DNA of 37,200 nt, taken from Solirubrobacterales bacterium. Its GTDB lineage: Bacteria > Actinomycetota > Thermoleophilia > Solirubrobacterales > Solirubrobacteraceae. Below are positions 1,412 to 27,710 of this stretch, piece after piece. The notes under the pieces are model-generated. The model worked only from the letters and a program-made list of their open reading frames with translations, made no database searches and had not been told where the DNA came from. The stretch lies in contig JAFAWR010000297.1 in the NCBI GenBank assembly GCA_019241635.1, positions 1 to 37,200 on the forward strand, given 5' to 3'. Within the stretch, counting starts at the first letter, position 1, and each line of letters starts with the position of its first letter. Made by a program: the position numbers and the translations under genes.

Positions 1412-2224
1412 ATGCCGAAAGTCAAGGACAAGCCCGGACGGATGTCGGCCCAGGAGACGCTTGATCTGTGGACGCAGTACAAGCAGACCGGCGATCAGCG
1501 CATCCGTGACCGTCTGGTCCTCACCTTCGCCCCGATGGTGAAGTACATCGTCTACAAGAAGGCGCGGGAGATCCCCGCCCGCTGCGAGGTGGAGGACTTC
1601 ATCTCGTGCGGCCTGGAGGCCCTGATCCGGTCGATCGACCGCTATGACCCCAACAAGGGCGCCACGCTCGAGCAGTTCGCCTGGACCCGGATCCACGGCG
1701 CCGTGCTCGACGAGCTTCGCCGCAACGACTGGGCTCCCCGCTCGCTGCGCCGCTGGGATCGGGACATCAGCAAGGCCAACGAGCAATTCGTCGGCCTGTA
1801 CGGCCGCAAGCCCAGCCGCGAGGAGCTGAGCGAGTCGCTCGGCATCTCCAAGAACGACCTGATCACCCGCCAGGACGAGATCGCGCGCTCCCACGTGGGC
1901 TCGCTGAACACAGTGGTGCTGGCCGAGGACGACACCACGATCGAGCGCATCGACACGCTGCACTCCGATGATCGTGACTACGACCCCGAGCACGCCGCGA
2001 TGCGCTCGGACGCCAAGGCACGCTTCCGCCAGGCCTTCGAGCGCCTCCCCGAGCGCGAGAGAAAGGTCGCCGTCCTGCTCTACGTCTACAACCTCACGCT
2101 GCGCGAGATCGGCGAGATCCTCGGCGTCACCGAGAGCCGCGTCTGCCAGATCCACGGCGCGATCACCAAGAAGCTGCGCGCCGAGCTGGAAGTCGACGAG
2201 CAGCTGTTCAGCGAGGTGGCCTGA
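1412..2224 (+). CDS. fliA: flagellar sigma factor FliA (sigma-28/WhiG family)
   Basis: This is a 270-residue sigma-70-family factor of the FliA/WhiG type that directs RNA polymerase to flagellar promoters. Region 2 is seen at about residues 18-100 (LWTQYKQTGDQRIRDRLVL, then VEDFISCGLEALIRSIDRYDP, then FAWTRIHGAVLDELRRNDWAPRS, the sigma-28 hallmark). Region 3 follows at about 105-165 (KPSREELSESLGISKNDL) and region 4 at about 205-262 (LPERERKVAVLLYVYNLTLREIGEILGVTESRVCQIH, helix-turn-helix). The ATG at 1412 follows a cGGAG site (1399-1403). The stop TGA abuts the csrA stop on the other strand with no base between. Eleven candidate sigma-28 promoters in this window are its likely targets. No FlgM anti-sigma factor gene is visible here. 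Confidence 0.97.
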   Translation: MPKVKDKPGRMSAQETLDLWTQYKQTGDQRIRDRLVLTFAPMVKYIVYKKAREIPARCEVEDFISCGLEALIRSIDRYDPNKGATLEQFAWTRIHGAVLDELRRNDWAPRSLRRWDRDISKANEQFVGLYGRKPSREELSESLGISKNDLITRQDEIARSHVGSLNTVVLAEDDTTIERIDTLHSDDRDYDPEHAAMRSDAKARFRQAFERLPERERKVAVLLYVYNLTLREIGEILGVTESRVCQIHGAITKKLRAELEVDEQLFSEVA

Positions 2225-2473
2225 TCAGGACGAGCCGGCGGCGCCTGACGGCGGCGCCGTGGGGAACTCCGGCAGGTCCCCGGCTGCCGCTGCTTCGGCG
2301 GCAGCCTGGTTTTCCTTCTTGACCTCGAGCCAGATCTCCTCGCGGTAGACCGGAACCGAGCGCGGGGCGTCGATCCCGATCCGCACGGTCTGCCCACGGA
2401 CCTCGAGGATCTCGATCACCGTGTTGTCGCCGAGCATGATGCGCTCGCCGGCTCGGCGGCTGATCCTCAGCAT
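2225..2473 (-). CDS. csrA: carbon storage regulator CsrA
   Basis: An 82-residue RNA-binding regulator that dimerises and binds GGA motifs in mRNA leaders. It starts MLRISRRAGERIMLGDNTVI and has the RNA-contact strand VYREEIWLEV with the conserved Arg of the REEI motif. The last ~25 residues (Ala/Pro/Ser rich) extend beyond the usual core of about 60. A longer reading with 31 extra N-terminal residues is rejected because CsrA begins at MLxL/I. Its start overlaps the fliW stop (TGATG), so the pair is translationally coupled, as expected for CsrA and its protein antagonist FliW. It is the last gene of the minus-strand operon. Candidate targets are the flgB leader (19074-19091) and the flaG leader (11241-11300). 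Confidence 0.96.
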   Translation of the reverse strand: MLRISRRAGERIMLGDNTVIEILEVRGQTVRIGIDAPRSVPVYREEIWLEVKKENQAAAEAAAAGDLPEFPTAPPSGAAGSS

Positions 2474-2931
2474 CAGTCGCCGTTGGCCGCCGCGCTGTCG
2501 GCCGCGCGCCCCGGAAACAACGGGACGCGGAGCTCGCAGCCAGGCGCCTGGTTGATCACTTGCCAAGCCTGCCCGGCGCGCACCAGGATGGGCGCCTTGA
2601 GGTTGGCCGTGAAGTCCTCCAGCGCCGGCGCGGCACGTACGGTCACGTAGACGTCCATCGCGCTCGAGGTCGCGAGCTCGAGGCGCTCGGCGTCCTCGTC
2701 CACCACCTCCACCGCGAAGTCGGCGAAGAACCGGTGCGGGTTGGTCACCGGTAGCGCGAGCGACGGGTCATCGAGCGACTGCAGCCACATGAACGGCGCT
2801 TCGGGGTCCTGAGCGATCATCGCGTAGCGCGACCCGGCCAGGCCGATGAGGCCCTCGGGGAACTCGAGCACCGACCCCGAGTCGACCTTGAGTTGCCCGA
2901 AGCGCGAGCTTTCGATCGTGAGCGACGACAC
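2473..2931 (-). CDS. fliW: flagellar assembly factor FliW
   Basis: A 152-residue cytoplasmic protein of the FliW family, which binds CsrA and, in Bacillus, is titrated by flagellin so that CsrA is freed when flagellin accumulates. Seen here: TIESSRFGQL, then VLEFPEGLIGL (the family signature FPxGLxGF/L), PFMWLQSLDDPSLALPVTNP and a C-terminal NLKAPILV segment. The start is GTG at 2931, 14 bases after the flgL stop and without an obvious Shine-Dalgarno site, so translation is probably coupled to flgL. The stop overlaps the csrA start by one base. Confidence 0.96.
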   Translation of the reverse strand: MSSLTIESSRFGQLKVDSGSVLEFPEGLIGLAGSRYAMIAQDPEAPFMWLQSLDDPSLALPVTNPHRFFADFAVEVVDEDAERLELATSSAMDVYVTVRAAPALEDFTANLKAPILVRAGQAWQVINQAPGCELRVPLFPGRAADSAAANGD

Positions 2932-18988: not shown

Positions 18989-19033
18989 GCGCCGGGCGGG
19001 GTCCTCGTGGCCCCGGCCGGCGCGATTCGTTTA
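18989..19033 (+). terminator. terminator after chemoreceptor 2
   Basis: Left arm GCGCCGG then CGGGG and right arm CCCCG then CCGGCGC form a strong stem with one G-G mismatch spanning 18989-19023, followed by GATTCGTTT. It lies between the chemoreceptor stop (18963) and the flgB promoter, as expected for an intrinsic terminator with a short, impure T tract. Confidence 0.7.
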
Positions 19034-19039
19034 AAGCCC

Positions 19040-19066
19040 TAAAGGATCTCCGCGGAAGGCCGATCC
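19040..19066 (+). promoter_or_regulatory. sigma-28 promoter of the flgB-fliI operon
   Basis: TAAAGGAT (19040-19047), 11 bases, GCCGATCC (19059-19066). Both boxes are good. Counting 15 bases from the first base of the -10 box puts the transcription start at 19074, the first base of a perfect dyad. Confidence 0.7.
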
Positions 19067-19073
19067 ATAGGGA

Positions 19074-19091
19074 GACTCGATGGATCGAGTC
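19074..19091 (+). promoter_or_regulatory. +1 dyad in the flgB leader, candidate CsrA hairpin
   Basis: GACTCGATGGATCGAGTC is a perfect inverted repeat. As RNA it folds into a six-pair stem closed by the hexaloop AUGGAU, which matches the ANGGAN loop preferred by CsrA. It would form the extreme 5' end of the flgB mRNA. A second GGA site, AAGGAGG, lies at 19103-19109, but 23 bases before the flgB ATG, too far for a normal Shine-Dalgarno site. As DNA it could instead be an operator. Confidence 0.55.
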
Positions 19092-19132
19092 GTATGTAGC
19101 CCAAGGAGGGCGAGCCACTTCCGGTTTGAACA

Positions 19133-19489
19133 ATGTCCCTCCTTGACACCACTCAGCAAGCCCTCGAGTCCGCGATGAGCGGCTCGATGCTGCGCAACAC
19201 GCTGCTGACCAACAACCTGGCCAACGTCGACACGCCCGGCTACCAGCCCGAGGACGTCAACTTCCAGTCGACGCTCCAGTCGGCCATTCAGTCCGGCTCG
19301 CCAGTCAGCCAGGTCAGCTTCCAGCCCTACACCGAGCAGCAGGCGGTCGGCGCCGATGGCAACGGCGTGAGCCCCGAGCAGACGCAGGCCGACCTCGCGC
19401 AGAACGGCCTGCTCTACGAGACGCTGACCCAGATCGCGACCCAGCGTGAGTCGATCCTGGAAAGCGCGATGGGGATGGGTCAGACCTGA
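19133..19489 (+). CDS. flgB: flagellar basal-body rod protein FlgB
   Basis: A 118-residue proximal rod protein. The N-terminal rod motif is seen in LRNTLLTNNLANVDTPGYQPEDVNFQ and the C-terminal helix in NGLLYETLTQIATQRESILESAMGMG. No correctly spaced ribosome site is seen; the only AAGGAGG is 23 bases upstream. It is the first gene of a tight operon (flgB-flgC-fliE-fliF-fliG-fliH-fliI), overlapping flgC by TGATG. Confidence 0.95.
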   Translation: MSLLDTTQQALESAMSGSMLRNTLLTNNLANVDTPGYQPEDVNFQSTLQSAIQSGSPVSQVSFQPYTEQQAVGADGNGVSPEQTQADLAQNGLLYETLTQIATQRESILESAMGMGQT

Positions 19490-26055: not shown

Positions 26056-27710
26056 GCTCGGTTGCAGCTGCCCTGCAGGCAGCGCCGGCCCCGAGCGGCG
26101 ACCCGCTCGCTTCGGCCGCCACCGACGCCCCGGCCGCCACCGGCGGGCCACCGGGCCTCGGGAGCGCGCCGCCCGGCTTTGCCAGCGTGCTCGATGACCA
26201 TGTGGCCCGGACCGCACTTGCGGAAGGCCAGAAGGGAAGCGCCGATGGATCGGCGCCGGCGGGGAAGAACGCCGCGACGTCCGCGTCCGATCCCACCACG
26301 CTGGCCGAGATCGTCGCGGCTGCGCTGAGCGCGAGCGCGCCGACGGCCCAGCCGACCCCAGCCCAGCCGACCCCCGCCGCCGCCACAACGGCCAGCACCG
26401 CCAGCGCGTCCAACACGGGCACGCAGACGCAAAACACACCGGCGTCCGCGCAGAGCAGCACAACTGCCTCCAGCGCGCCCGCGACCCCGGCCGATCAGCT
26501 GATCGCTGCGGTGGCTGCCGCCGCGACGCCGTCCGCCCCGGCTTCCGCCGCGTCCGCCGCGTCCGCGCCCGTGCCCGCCGCGTCATCGCAGCCCGCTCCG
26601 ACTTCCGCCCCCGCCCCCGCGCCGGCCCCCACGGGCTTGGCAAAGGCGGCGACCCTGACCGACACCCCCGCCGTGAACAACACGGCTCCCCTGACCGACA
26701 CCCCCACCCTGACCGACACCCCCACCCCCAGCGAGAGCCCGGCGGCGTCCAACGCCAACGCCAACGCCACGCCGCCGGCGCTCTCCGCTGCGCCCGCCGC
26801 TCAGACCGCGGCACCCGCCGCGCCGTCCGCCCCCGTCACCGCTCAGCCCGCCCGGACGCCGTCGCCCGCCCAACCCCAGCCGACCGTCACCCCCACCGCT
26901 CAGCCGACCCCGTCCGCGCAGCCGACCCCGTCCGCCCAGCCGACCCCGTCCGCCCAGCCCGCACCCCACGCCACCGACGCGGCACAGACCGCGGCGACCC
27001 CGAGCACCCCGACCACCCCGAGCACCGTCCAGACCGCGACCTCGACGCCGGCCGACGGGTCGACCGTTCAGTCCACATCCCAATCACAGTCACAGTCACA
27101 CACACCGTCAGACTCGCAGTCACAATCGCAGCCGCAGCCCCAGCAGGCGCCCAGCGTCCAGCCGCAGTCGCAAACGCCGGCCGTGGCTCCCACCGCCGCT
27201 CCGCAGAGCGCGCCGGCCATCCAGGCGACCCAGGCCGCCGAGGCGGCCGCGCCGACCCGCTACGGCGTCTCGCTGCAGCACACGGTCGACGCGGTGCGCA
27301 CGACGATCGAGCTCGGCGCGCGCCAGGGCTTCACCCAGGCCAAGATCGAGCTCTCGCCGGGTTCGCTCGGGACGATCCGCATTCAGCTGCACCGCACCGA
27401 CGAGGGCGTGACCGCCCACGTGGTGACCGACAGCGCCGCCACCGCCGACACGCTCTCCCAGGGCAGCGATGACCTGCGCCGTTCGCTGCAGTCCGCCGGC
27501 GTGAACCTCCTCCGTCTCGACATCGAGGCCCGGGGCGACGGCAACACCCAGACCCAGAACGGCGCCCAGGACGACTCGTCACGCTCGCAGGGCGGCGCGA
27601 GCTCCGGAACTACCGGGTCGATCGACGCGATCGGCGACTCCGACTCGAGCCAGGCCGAGCCCACGCCCGGGGTGACCCCCGGCGGCACCCTCGTCAACGT
27701 GCTCGCCTGA
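26052..27710 (+). CDS. fliK: flagellar hook-length control protein FliK
   Basis: A 552-residue exported ruler protein. About 400 residues are a low-complexity Ala/Pro/Thr/Ser/Gln linker with short repeats. The C-terminal switch domain lies at about residues 400-500: YGVSLQHTVDAVRTTIELG, FTQAKIELSPGSLGTIRIQL, LRRSLQSAGVNLLRLDIEA, matching the FliK LxPxxLGxixVxL pattern. I start at ATG 26052, which overlaps the fliJ stop (ATGA); the frame is open upstream only as a shadow of fliJ. It is a second FliK-type protein besides the one at 7641. Confidence 0.93.
   Translation: MSSVAAALQAAPAPSGDPLASAATDAPAATGGPPGLGSAPPGFASVLDDHVARTALAEGQKGSADGSAPAGKNAATSASDPTTLAEIVAAALSASAPTAQPTPAQPTPAAATTASTASASNTGTQTQNTPASAQSSTTASSAPATPADQLIAAVAAAATPSAPASAASAASAPVPAASSQPAPTSAPAPAPAPTGLAKAATLTDTPAVNNTAPLTDTPTLTDTPTPSESPAASNANANATPPALSAAPAAQTAAPAAPSAPVTAQPARTPSPAQPQPTVTPTAQPTPSAQPTPSAQPTPSAQPAPHATDAAQTAATPSTPTTPSTVQTATSTPADGSTVQSTSQSQSQSHTPSDSQSQSQPQPQQAPSVQPQSQTPAVAPTAAPQSAPAIQATQAAEAAAPTRYGVSLQHTVDAVRTTIELGARQGFTQAKIELSPGSLGTIRIQLHRTDEGVTAHVVTDSAATADTLSQGSDDLRRSLQSAGVNLLRLDIEARGDGNTQTQNGAQDDSSRSQGGASSGTTGSIDAIGDSDSSQAEPTPGVTPGGTLVNVLA
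26901..26954 (+). repeat. 18-bp tandem repeat in fliK (Gln-Pro-Thr-Pro-Ser-Ala units)
   Basis: Three near-identical copies of CAGCCGACCCCGTCCGCC follow one another; shorter CTGACCGACACCCCC repeats occur at about 26655, 26691 and 26709. All keep the reading frame, so copy changes would alter linker length in a protein that measures length. Confidence 0.9.

Follow-up and report, generated by a model that had tools for sequence, protein, structure and literature searches.

A conserved pair of predicted GGA hairpins ahead of the flgB operon of a Solirubrobacterales bacterium, a candidate CsrA-responsive switch

The flgB leader and the genes around it

The stretch analyzed here, positions 1 to 37,200 of contig JAFAWR010000297.1 of a Solirubrobacterales bacterium (hereafter the window), is occupied by a flagellar gene cluster, in which flgB (19133..19489, plus strand, encoding 118 amino acids) is the first gene of a co-directional run. 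The present analysis concerns the leader of flgB. This leader contains two short hairpins that carry GGA in their loops, a pair that recurs in the flgB leaders of many relatives, and the second of the two sites can also pair with a downstream segment predicted to block expression. We propose that the leader may act as an RNA switch responding to CsrA.

A promoter of the sigma-28 (FliA) type, TAAA-N15-GCCGATCC, recognized by its sequence pattern, is located at 19040..19066 on the plus strand. Going by the consensus spacing of such promoters, transcription presumably starts at about 19073-19074. The predicted 5′ end is thereby occupied by hairpin 1, GACTCG-ATGGAT-CGAGTC (19074..19091, plus strand), which has a loop of the CsrA-type ANGGAN form with its GGA at 19082-19084. 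Hairpin 2, GCCC-AAGGA-GGGC (19099..19111, plus strand), presents GGA (19105-19107) in the pentaloop AAGGA and includes the motif AAGGAGG (19103-19109). An earlier note on this DNA, made from the letters alone, had reported the promoter, the perfect dyad of hairpin 1 and the AAGGAGG motif, and all three are confirmed at these positions. The six-pair stem with the hexaloop AUGGAU that it drew for hairpin 1 fits the sequence, while the fold preferred by RNAfold has seven pairs and the tetraloop UGGA (-8.4 kcal/mol), the two drawings differing by one A-U pair. The note had also counted AAGGAGG as a second GGA site. Such a site is indeed present, and it is more than the additional GGA that was described, AAGGA being the loop of hairpin 2 (predicted energy -5.8 kcal/mol). 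Both GGA motifs are thus found in the apical loops of short hairpins. They are spaced by 23 nucleotides (nt), which falls within the range of 10-63 nt over which a pair of CsrA sites can be bridged by one dimer (PMC7652899; here and below, the literature is cited from the available parts of the papers).

The motif AAGGAGG looks like a Shine-Dalgarno (SD) sequence. It is ruled out as a normal one by the 23 nt that separate it from the ATG at 19133, as the earlier note had argued, and an earlier start in the flgB frame is excluded because of the in-frame TGA at 19127. Other clades have ACGGAC, AGGGAC or ATGGAT at the equivalent place, and the likeness is therefore probably incidental. Hairpin 2 as a whole extends to 19111 and so stops 21 nt short of the ATG. 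A further small hairpin, CGAGCC/GGTTTG (19111..19128, plus strand), forms inside the alternative structure described below and was not seen to be conserved in relatives. An SD sequence looped out by means of this hairpin would be possible in the focal leader, and none was seen by eye in the relatives.

The dyad of hairpin 1 is a single site in the window in a search allowing up to three mismatches. Hairpins with a six-pair Watson-Crick stem and an ANGGAN loop occur twice in the window (at 19074 and 26239, both on the plus strand), compared with 0.15 expected from dinucleotide-shuffled windows with both strands counted. The one at 26239, also perfect, sits within the fliK-like coding region.

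The genes that follow flgB in the same direction are flgC-like, fliE, fliF, fliG, fliH, a fliI-like ATPase gene, fliK and flgD, and the run continues with genes for a FlgE/F/G protein and a MotA/ExbB protein and with fliN, cheB and cheR, the whole forming a putative operon. On the plus strand before flgB, the window carries fliD, fliS and two genes for methyl-accepting chemotaxis proteins, as well as a gene for a FliA-like sigma factor (1412..2224) in which regions 2, 3 and 4 are encoded. The minus strand carries csrA (2294..2473, MLRISRR...VPVYREE over the first 60 codons, which were read), the adjoining fliW (2473..2931), flgK, flgN and, after flgK, a gene whose product has flagellin N and C domains and is probably FlgL.

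Conservation of the hairpins and of CsrA

A search for FlgB gave hits in 17 of 61 genomes (the focal one counted) and, across the class, in 83 of 399; 89 class leaders were read, 88 of which are long enough for a hairpin count. In 67 of the 89 leaders the pattern T[CA]AA ... [CT]CGA occurs no more than 150 nt ahead of flgB, and in an alignment of 19 leaders CCGA occupies invariant or nearly invariant columns. At least two gapless GGA hairpins are found in 31 of the 88 leaders and at least one in 60, where dinucleotide shuffles give 2.15 and 20.7, respectively; the leaders are related and not independent, and these counts are not to be taken as probabilities. Among all 64 loop triplets, GGA is the one that occurs as two loops in the largest number of leaders (31), followed by CGG (11), which overlaps ACGGA. 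A set of 62 of the 89 leaders was selected by hand as having an untranslated leader of sufficient length, whereas those excluded had a promoter closer than 60 nt to the start or were preceded by coding sequence, or did not reach the required length. At least two ANGGA motifs are present in 52 of these 62, compared with 3.8% in mononucleotide shuffles. The leader is also carried by a cultured relative, Patulibacter americanus DSM 16676 (L058). In the lineages without such a leader, among them loci L013, L015 and L040, the distance from the sigma-28 site to flgB is 35-56 nt, or a site of this kind is not found.

The arm-permutation test, together with the 31 of 88 leaders above, points to conservation of structure and not of sequence. 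With the 3′ arms permuted between leaders, the stem score is 5.44 (standard deviation 0.73) for the first site, compared with 13.06 for the leaders' own arms; the corresponding values are 4.74 and 8.50 for middle sites, and 6.41 (standard deviation 0.49) and 8.63 for the last, and in each case 0 of 2000 permutations score as high as the leaders' own arms. For leaders with a single site (n = 10), the own arms score 10.10 and the permuted ones 8.02 (34 of 2000). Pair counts on an alignment fitted to the model (A3), which includes some chance matches, favor structure as well. The letters of the arms vary widely: the first hairpin is GACTCG-atggat-CGAGTC in the focal leader, GTGACCGC-atgga-GCGGTCAC in genome G013, AGGTCGT-cacggaga-ACGACCT in G006, and CGCCCC-acggac-GGGGCG in G285. 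We consider this variety a stronger argument than the counts. Stem changes that compensate each other while the GGA loop stays the same, for which the earlier note had suggested looking in orthologues, are found across many genera and several families, and the comparison of leaders indicates that the hairpin pair is real and widely conserved.

The same variation bears on the alternative that the note had offered, namely that the dyad acts as DNA, as an operator at +1 to which a transcription factor binds. The symmetry of 16 of the 18 dyad bases would suit an operator. However, the arms differ between genera while their pairing is kept, the asymmetric ANGGA loop is conserved on the mRNA strand, and a second hairpin with the same type of loop follows. 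The conserved arms expected of an operator are not found, and we reject this explanation as scarcely credible.

A CsrA match was obtained in 74 of the 80 genomes with a FlgB hit (own genome included), and FliW was likewise found in 74 of these 80. Outside the class, CsrA is present in 43 of 45 genomes with FlgB. Among the 35 class genomes in which FlgB gave no hit, 25 also have a CsrA match, and the presence of CsrA therefore does not distinguish genomes that have FlgB from those that lack it; it may be the extra csrA copy beside fliW that goes with flagella. The focal genome has two csrA copies, one located directly after fliW in the window and the other on another contig. The flagellar CsrA matches solved CsrA structures in its sequence and retains R6 and R44, the former of which we take to be one of the RNA-binding residues. 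R44 belongs to the RNA-binding surface of CsrA (PMC7652899), and with both residues retained in the flagellar copy the genome encodes a CsrA with this surface.

On structural grounds, CsrA is very likely the ligand of the flgB leader, as far as this can be predicted. It could also be considered that the hairpins are real and have a different regulator as their ligand, or that the leader is a structured RNA that functions independently of any protein. The leader matches no Rfam family, as judged from the window and 20 loci at the gathering score and from 19030-19200 up to E 1, which would be consistent with such a situation. The ANGGA loops, the two sites at bridging distance and the csrA-fliW pair in the window make it decidedly improbable. 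Control of the CsrA type at the flgB operon, which the earlier note had proposed as reaching beyond the filament genes, is supported by the covariation of the stems, by csrA-fliW in the window and by the occurrence of CsrA in 74 of the 80 genomes. This suggests that CsrA may control the start of flagellum building and not the filament alone.

A covariance model of promoter and leader (R1), built from flgB leaders, was searched in 20 whole genomes, and the flgB leader is the top match in 18 of them (list read by eye). The exceptions are G231, in which flgB has no such leader, and G379, in which the leader of flgB has a weak score and the top match is elsewhere. The latter match (L203, G379:C1:3578199-3578295) scores 55 bits to R1 and has one ANGGAN hairpin before a response-regulator-like open reading frame, away from flgB. 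Twelve loci among the weaker matches were inspected, their genes being named by resemblance. At L219 (G046:C84), two GGA hairpins are present in the sigma-28-type leader of a flagellin-like gene, and the second contains AAGGAGG beside the ATG, the classical hag/flaA form. L213 and L214 are FlaG-like genes of two relatives, with sigma-28-type leaders and GGA hairpins, and L216 (G348:C184) is a rod gene of the FlgF/G type with the two ANGGA hairpins CCGC-AAGGA-GCGG and CCGC-AGGGA-GCGG. The remaining inspected matches have sigma-28-type promoters without GGA hairpins. It is likely that there is a flagellar CsrA regulon, of which flgB is the best-scoring member under a model that was itself built from flgB leaders.

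Predicted downstream pairing of the second GGA site

The structure first described at flgB is confirmed, and it is larger than the single dyad, a second hairpin and an alternative helix being added to it. The strand CAAGGAGGG (19102..19110, plus strand) is fully complementary to CCCTCCTTG (19137..19145, plus strand), which covers codons 2-5 of flgB. The resulting nine-pair helix is incompatible with hairpin 2; it dominates the predicted minimum-energy fold and encloses the ATG. The 49-nt piece that contains it has a predicted energy of -21.5 kcal/mol (z -3.9). The 3′ strand of the helix includes the rare codon CTT for Leu4, by which the pairing is completed and which is also used at this position in 7 of 10 congeners, CTT accounting for 1.9% of the Leu codons in the flagellar open reading frames of the window and for 6.1% of the other Leu codons in the ten flgB genes. 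An early-codon bias toward A and T is a possible alternative reason for this codon, and the congeners are related, too.

The calculated ensembles of 60 leaders show downstream pairing of the second GGA with a mean probability of 0.54, compared with 0.35 when the downstream part is shuffled, and the genus means are above the shuffled ones in 19 of 24 (p 8e-4). A first version of this test dropped 9 of the 60 leaders by hand, hairpin 2 being seemingly misassigned in them, and the repeat used all 60. In all eight focal-genus leaders of the set the probability is 0.83-1.00. The center of the pairing partner is at +8 in six of these eight, and many other genera have it at about -2 to -10. Holding hairpin 2 opens the start region, with positive genus means in 21 of 24, a result that has no null of its own and by which the sign of the effect is not proved.

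Outside the focal lineage, the second site is found in a different kind of structure. A sample of the phylum, in which FlgB is present in 55 of 346 genomes (ten of them in the focal class), contains several flgB leaders with a GC-rich hairpin and then T-rich sequence before flgB, such as CTC-ATGGAG-GAG... (G479) and GTTC-ATGGAA-GGAC... (G453). The leaders of G418 and G749 are further examples with a terminator-like hairpin. A mechanical scan of 132 flgB leaders (89 from the class and 43 from outside it) detects terminator-like hairpins in 20, and in 14 of these 20 ANGGA is located at the base of the 5′ arm. The background is 80 of 1406 terminator-like hairpins (5.7%; Fisher 3e-13), taken from both strands of all loci compared, among them loci of other phyla and the flgB leaders themselves. 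The scan missed some leaders of similar appearance to the eye (G453, G631, G063 and G616). Among ten leaders gathered after the idea had formed, the same scan gives seven hairpins, six of them with ANGGA at the base, and inspection of the folds by eye shows the arrangement in eight of the ten. At least two ANGGA motifs are present in 20 of the 43 out-of-class leaders; in several of the others the upstream sequence is coding-like by eye, and flgB apparently has no leader of its own.

An alternative role for CsrA has to be mentioned here, in which its binding at the extreme 5′ end stabilizes the mRNA against RNase E and the downstream pairing is incidental. The precedent is E. coli flhDC, which has two sites near the 5′ end (PMC7652899), and hairpin 1 does begin at the predicted +1. 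Since this explanation accounts neither for the terminator-like hairpins with ANGGA at their base nor for the rare CTT codon, we regard it as improbable.

Proposed switch and comparison with known systems

We propose that the flgB leader would serve as a CsrA-responsive RNA switch ahead of the basal-body operon. The sigma-28 transcript would start with two hairpins, whose ANGGA motifs, about 23 nt apart, could be bridged by one CsrA dimer. In the absence of CsrA, the second GGA site would open and become available to sequence further downstream. Its partner in the focal leader would be codons 2-5 of flgB, so that the start codon is enclosed; in other lineages the pairing would form the base of an intrinsic terminator ahead of flgB. 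When bound to hairpin 2, CsrA would exclude the blocking helix and switch the operon on, either by antitermination or by freeing the start codon. Activation is predicted because CsrA-bound hairpin 2 cannot coexist with the blocking helix or the terminator, and the activating sign and the antitermination are both predictions of the model; the earlier note had named neither a mechanism nor a sign. FliW would be the antagonist of CsrA, and cytosolic flagellin would free CsrA; the released CsrA would then limit flagellin and simultaneously raise the demand for basal bodies. Sequence comparison shows the hairpin pair with its covariation and its GGA loops, the overlap of the second site with the alternative helix or the terminator-like hairpin, and CsrA and FliW in the genome, while the binding of CsrA, the transcript start, the activating sign and the part played by FliW are inferred. 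We give about even chances to a CsrA-responsive switch with activation through the second site.

The opposite sign is conceivable as well. CsrA on both hairpins would in that case repress the translation of flgB, with a dimer at -59 to -22 hindering the ribosome or hastening mRNA decay. Tandem GGA hairpins, spaced by 21 nt, repress C. jejuni flaA (PMC4894983), which makes repression a real rival, and the flagellin leader L219 of a relative, with its SD-like AAGGAGG, has the classical form. However, neither GGA site of the focal leader lies over an SD sequence or the start codon in the manner of hag and flaA: there is no normally spaced SD to be covered, since 21 nt remain between hairpin 2 and the ATG, and the hairpin is similarly placed in most relatives. 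Moreover, in those relatives whose leaders carry a terminator-like hairpin, the structure overlapped by the site would itself be expected to block expression. Repression is in our view rather unlikely.

Several observations weigh against the activating switch. The pair counts on a MAFFT alignment with one fixed register (A2) do not clearly exceed the controls, because loop lengths differ. The probability of downstream pairing is below 0.5 in 25 of the 60 leaders, and a simpler duplex test gives P<=0.05 in 9 of the 60, the ensemble test being the clearer of the two. Holding hairpin 2 hardly opens the focal start region (from 0.56 to 0.57 unpaired), and the focal leader gives no hit in the mechanical scan for terminator-like hairpins. 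Of the ten later leaders, nine come from family f21, as do the six positives without exception, and this family was already a source of cases when the idea arose. Genomes G015, G231, G241, G298 and G389 have no tandem hairpins and have a sigma-28 site 35-56 nt before flgB, with csrA kept; G037 and G040 are without both hairpins and without the sigma-28 promoter pattern, and yet csrA is present. Lineages without the leader thus keep csrA, and the switch is therefore dispensable. Finally, G335 and G369 have GGA hairpins and no CsrA match, both assemblies being fragmented.

A wider form of the proposal can be put forward only tentatively. In many Actinomycetota lineages, a CsrA-controlled attenuator would head the basal-body operon and CsrA would antiterminate, the GGA and the 3′ arm of the second hairpin being also part of an intrinsic terminator or, in Solirubrobacterales, of the helix that encloses the start codon; flagellin, FliW and CsrA would by one signal balance filament subunit and basal-body number in opposite directions. 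FliW-CsrA is known above all for its checkpoint role on flagellin, which is made late, and with a switch at flgB this signal would act already at the first gene of the rod/export operon. Should the overlap with the terminator function as its appearance suggests, intrinsic termination would come under the control of CsrA. The proposal would also offer a testable answer to the question of how basal-body number might be matched to the flagellin supply of the cell.

The mechanisms of CsrA covered in review are translation, mRNA stability and Rho-dependent termination (PMC7652899). The action of CsrA on non-filament flagellar genes is already known (C. jejuni flgI, PMC4894983; Acidithiobacillus caldus flgC, PMC13029372); new here is a second GGA site that is predicted to pair also with an expression-blocking segment. 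Among the matches listed, judged by title or abstract opening, we found no report of CsrA control of flgB in Actinomycetota, the subscription literature being largely outside the scope and the absence thus unproven. The matches listed likewise include no report of CsrA antitermination at an intrinsic terminator and no paper on CsrA targets in Actinomycetota.

Among known systems, hag of B. subtilis is a case in which translation is repressed by CsrA. In the BglG, LicT and SacY antiterminators, the protein binds a hairpin that shares sequence with the 5′ arm of a terminator. This overlap layout is alike in the flgB leaders of relatives (14 of 20, and 6 of 7 in the later set), while the protein and the RNA motif are unrelated and the focal leader is without a terminator-like hairpin. 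The flgB leader of C. difficile contains a c-di-GMP (cyclic di-GMP) riboswitch. Attenuation before the flgB operon would be common to both; however, the element there is a riboswitch and not a protein site, and no Rfam match is obtained here.

The flaA leader of C. jejuni, with two GGA hairpins 21 nt apart, is repressed by CsrA within the FliW-CsrA flagellin checkpoint, and in the same organism flgI and flgH are enriched with CsrA, whereas flgB is not (0.7-1.6 fold; PMC4894983). The focal leader is similar in that a sigma-28 gene has two GGA hairpins in its leader (23 nt apart here, 21 nt in flaA) and FliW is present as the likely antagonist. It differs in its target, flgB being the head of the rod/export operon, in that no normally spaced SD is covered, and in that the second site overlaps an alternative blocking helix. 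In A. caldus, flgC and other flagellar genes are under CsrA, and the primer list includes flgB (PMC13029372). CsrA acts on a rod gene there, as it would here, while the available part of that paper describes no tandem-hairpin leader or switch. At E. coli pgaA, CsrA promotes Rho-dependent termination (PMC7652899); transcript elongation in the flgB leader would similarly be under CsrA, but with the opposite sign and with termination that is intrinsic rather than Rho-dependent. The E. coli ymdA and moaA leaders are activated by CsrA (PMC7652899). As in ymdA, a GGA site of the focal leader falls within a structure predicted to block the ribosome, here the helix 19102-19110/19137-19145 that encloses the ATG, and another site, hairpin 1, is located just upstream, so that CsrA would open the structure. 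Unlike ymdA and moaA, the focal leader belongs to another phylum and another gene, and the blocking structure of its relatives resembles an intrinsic terminator.
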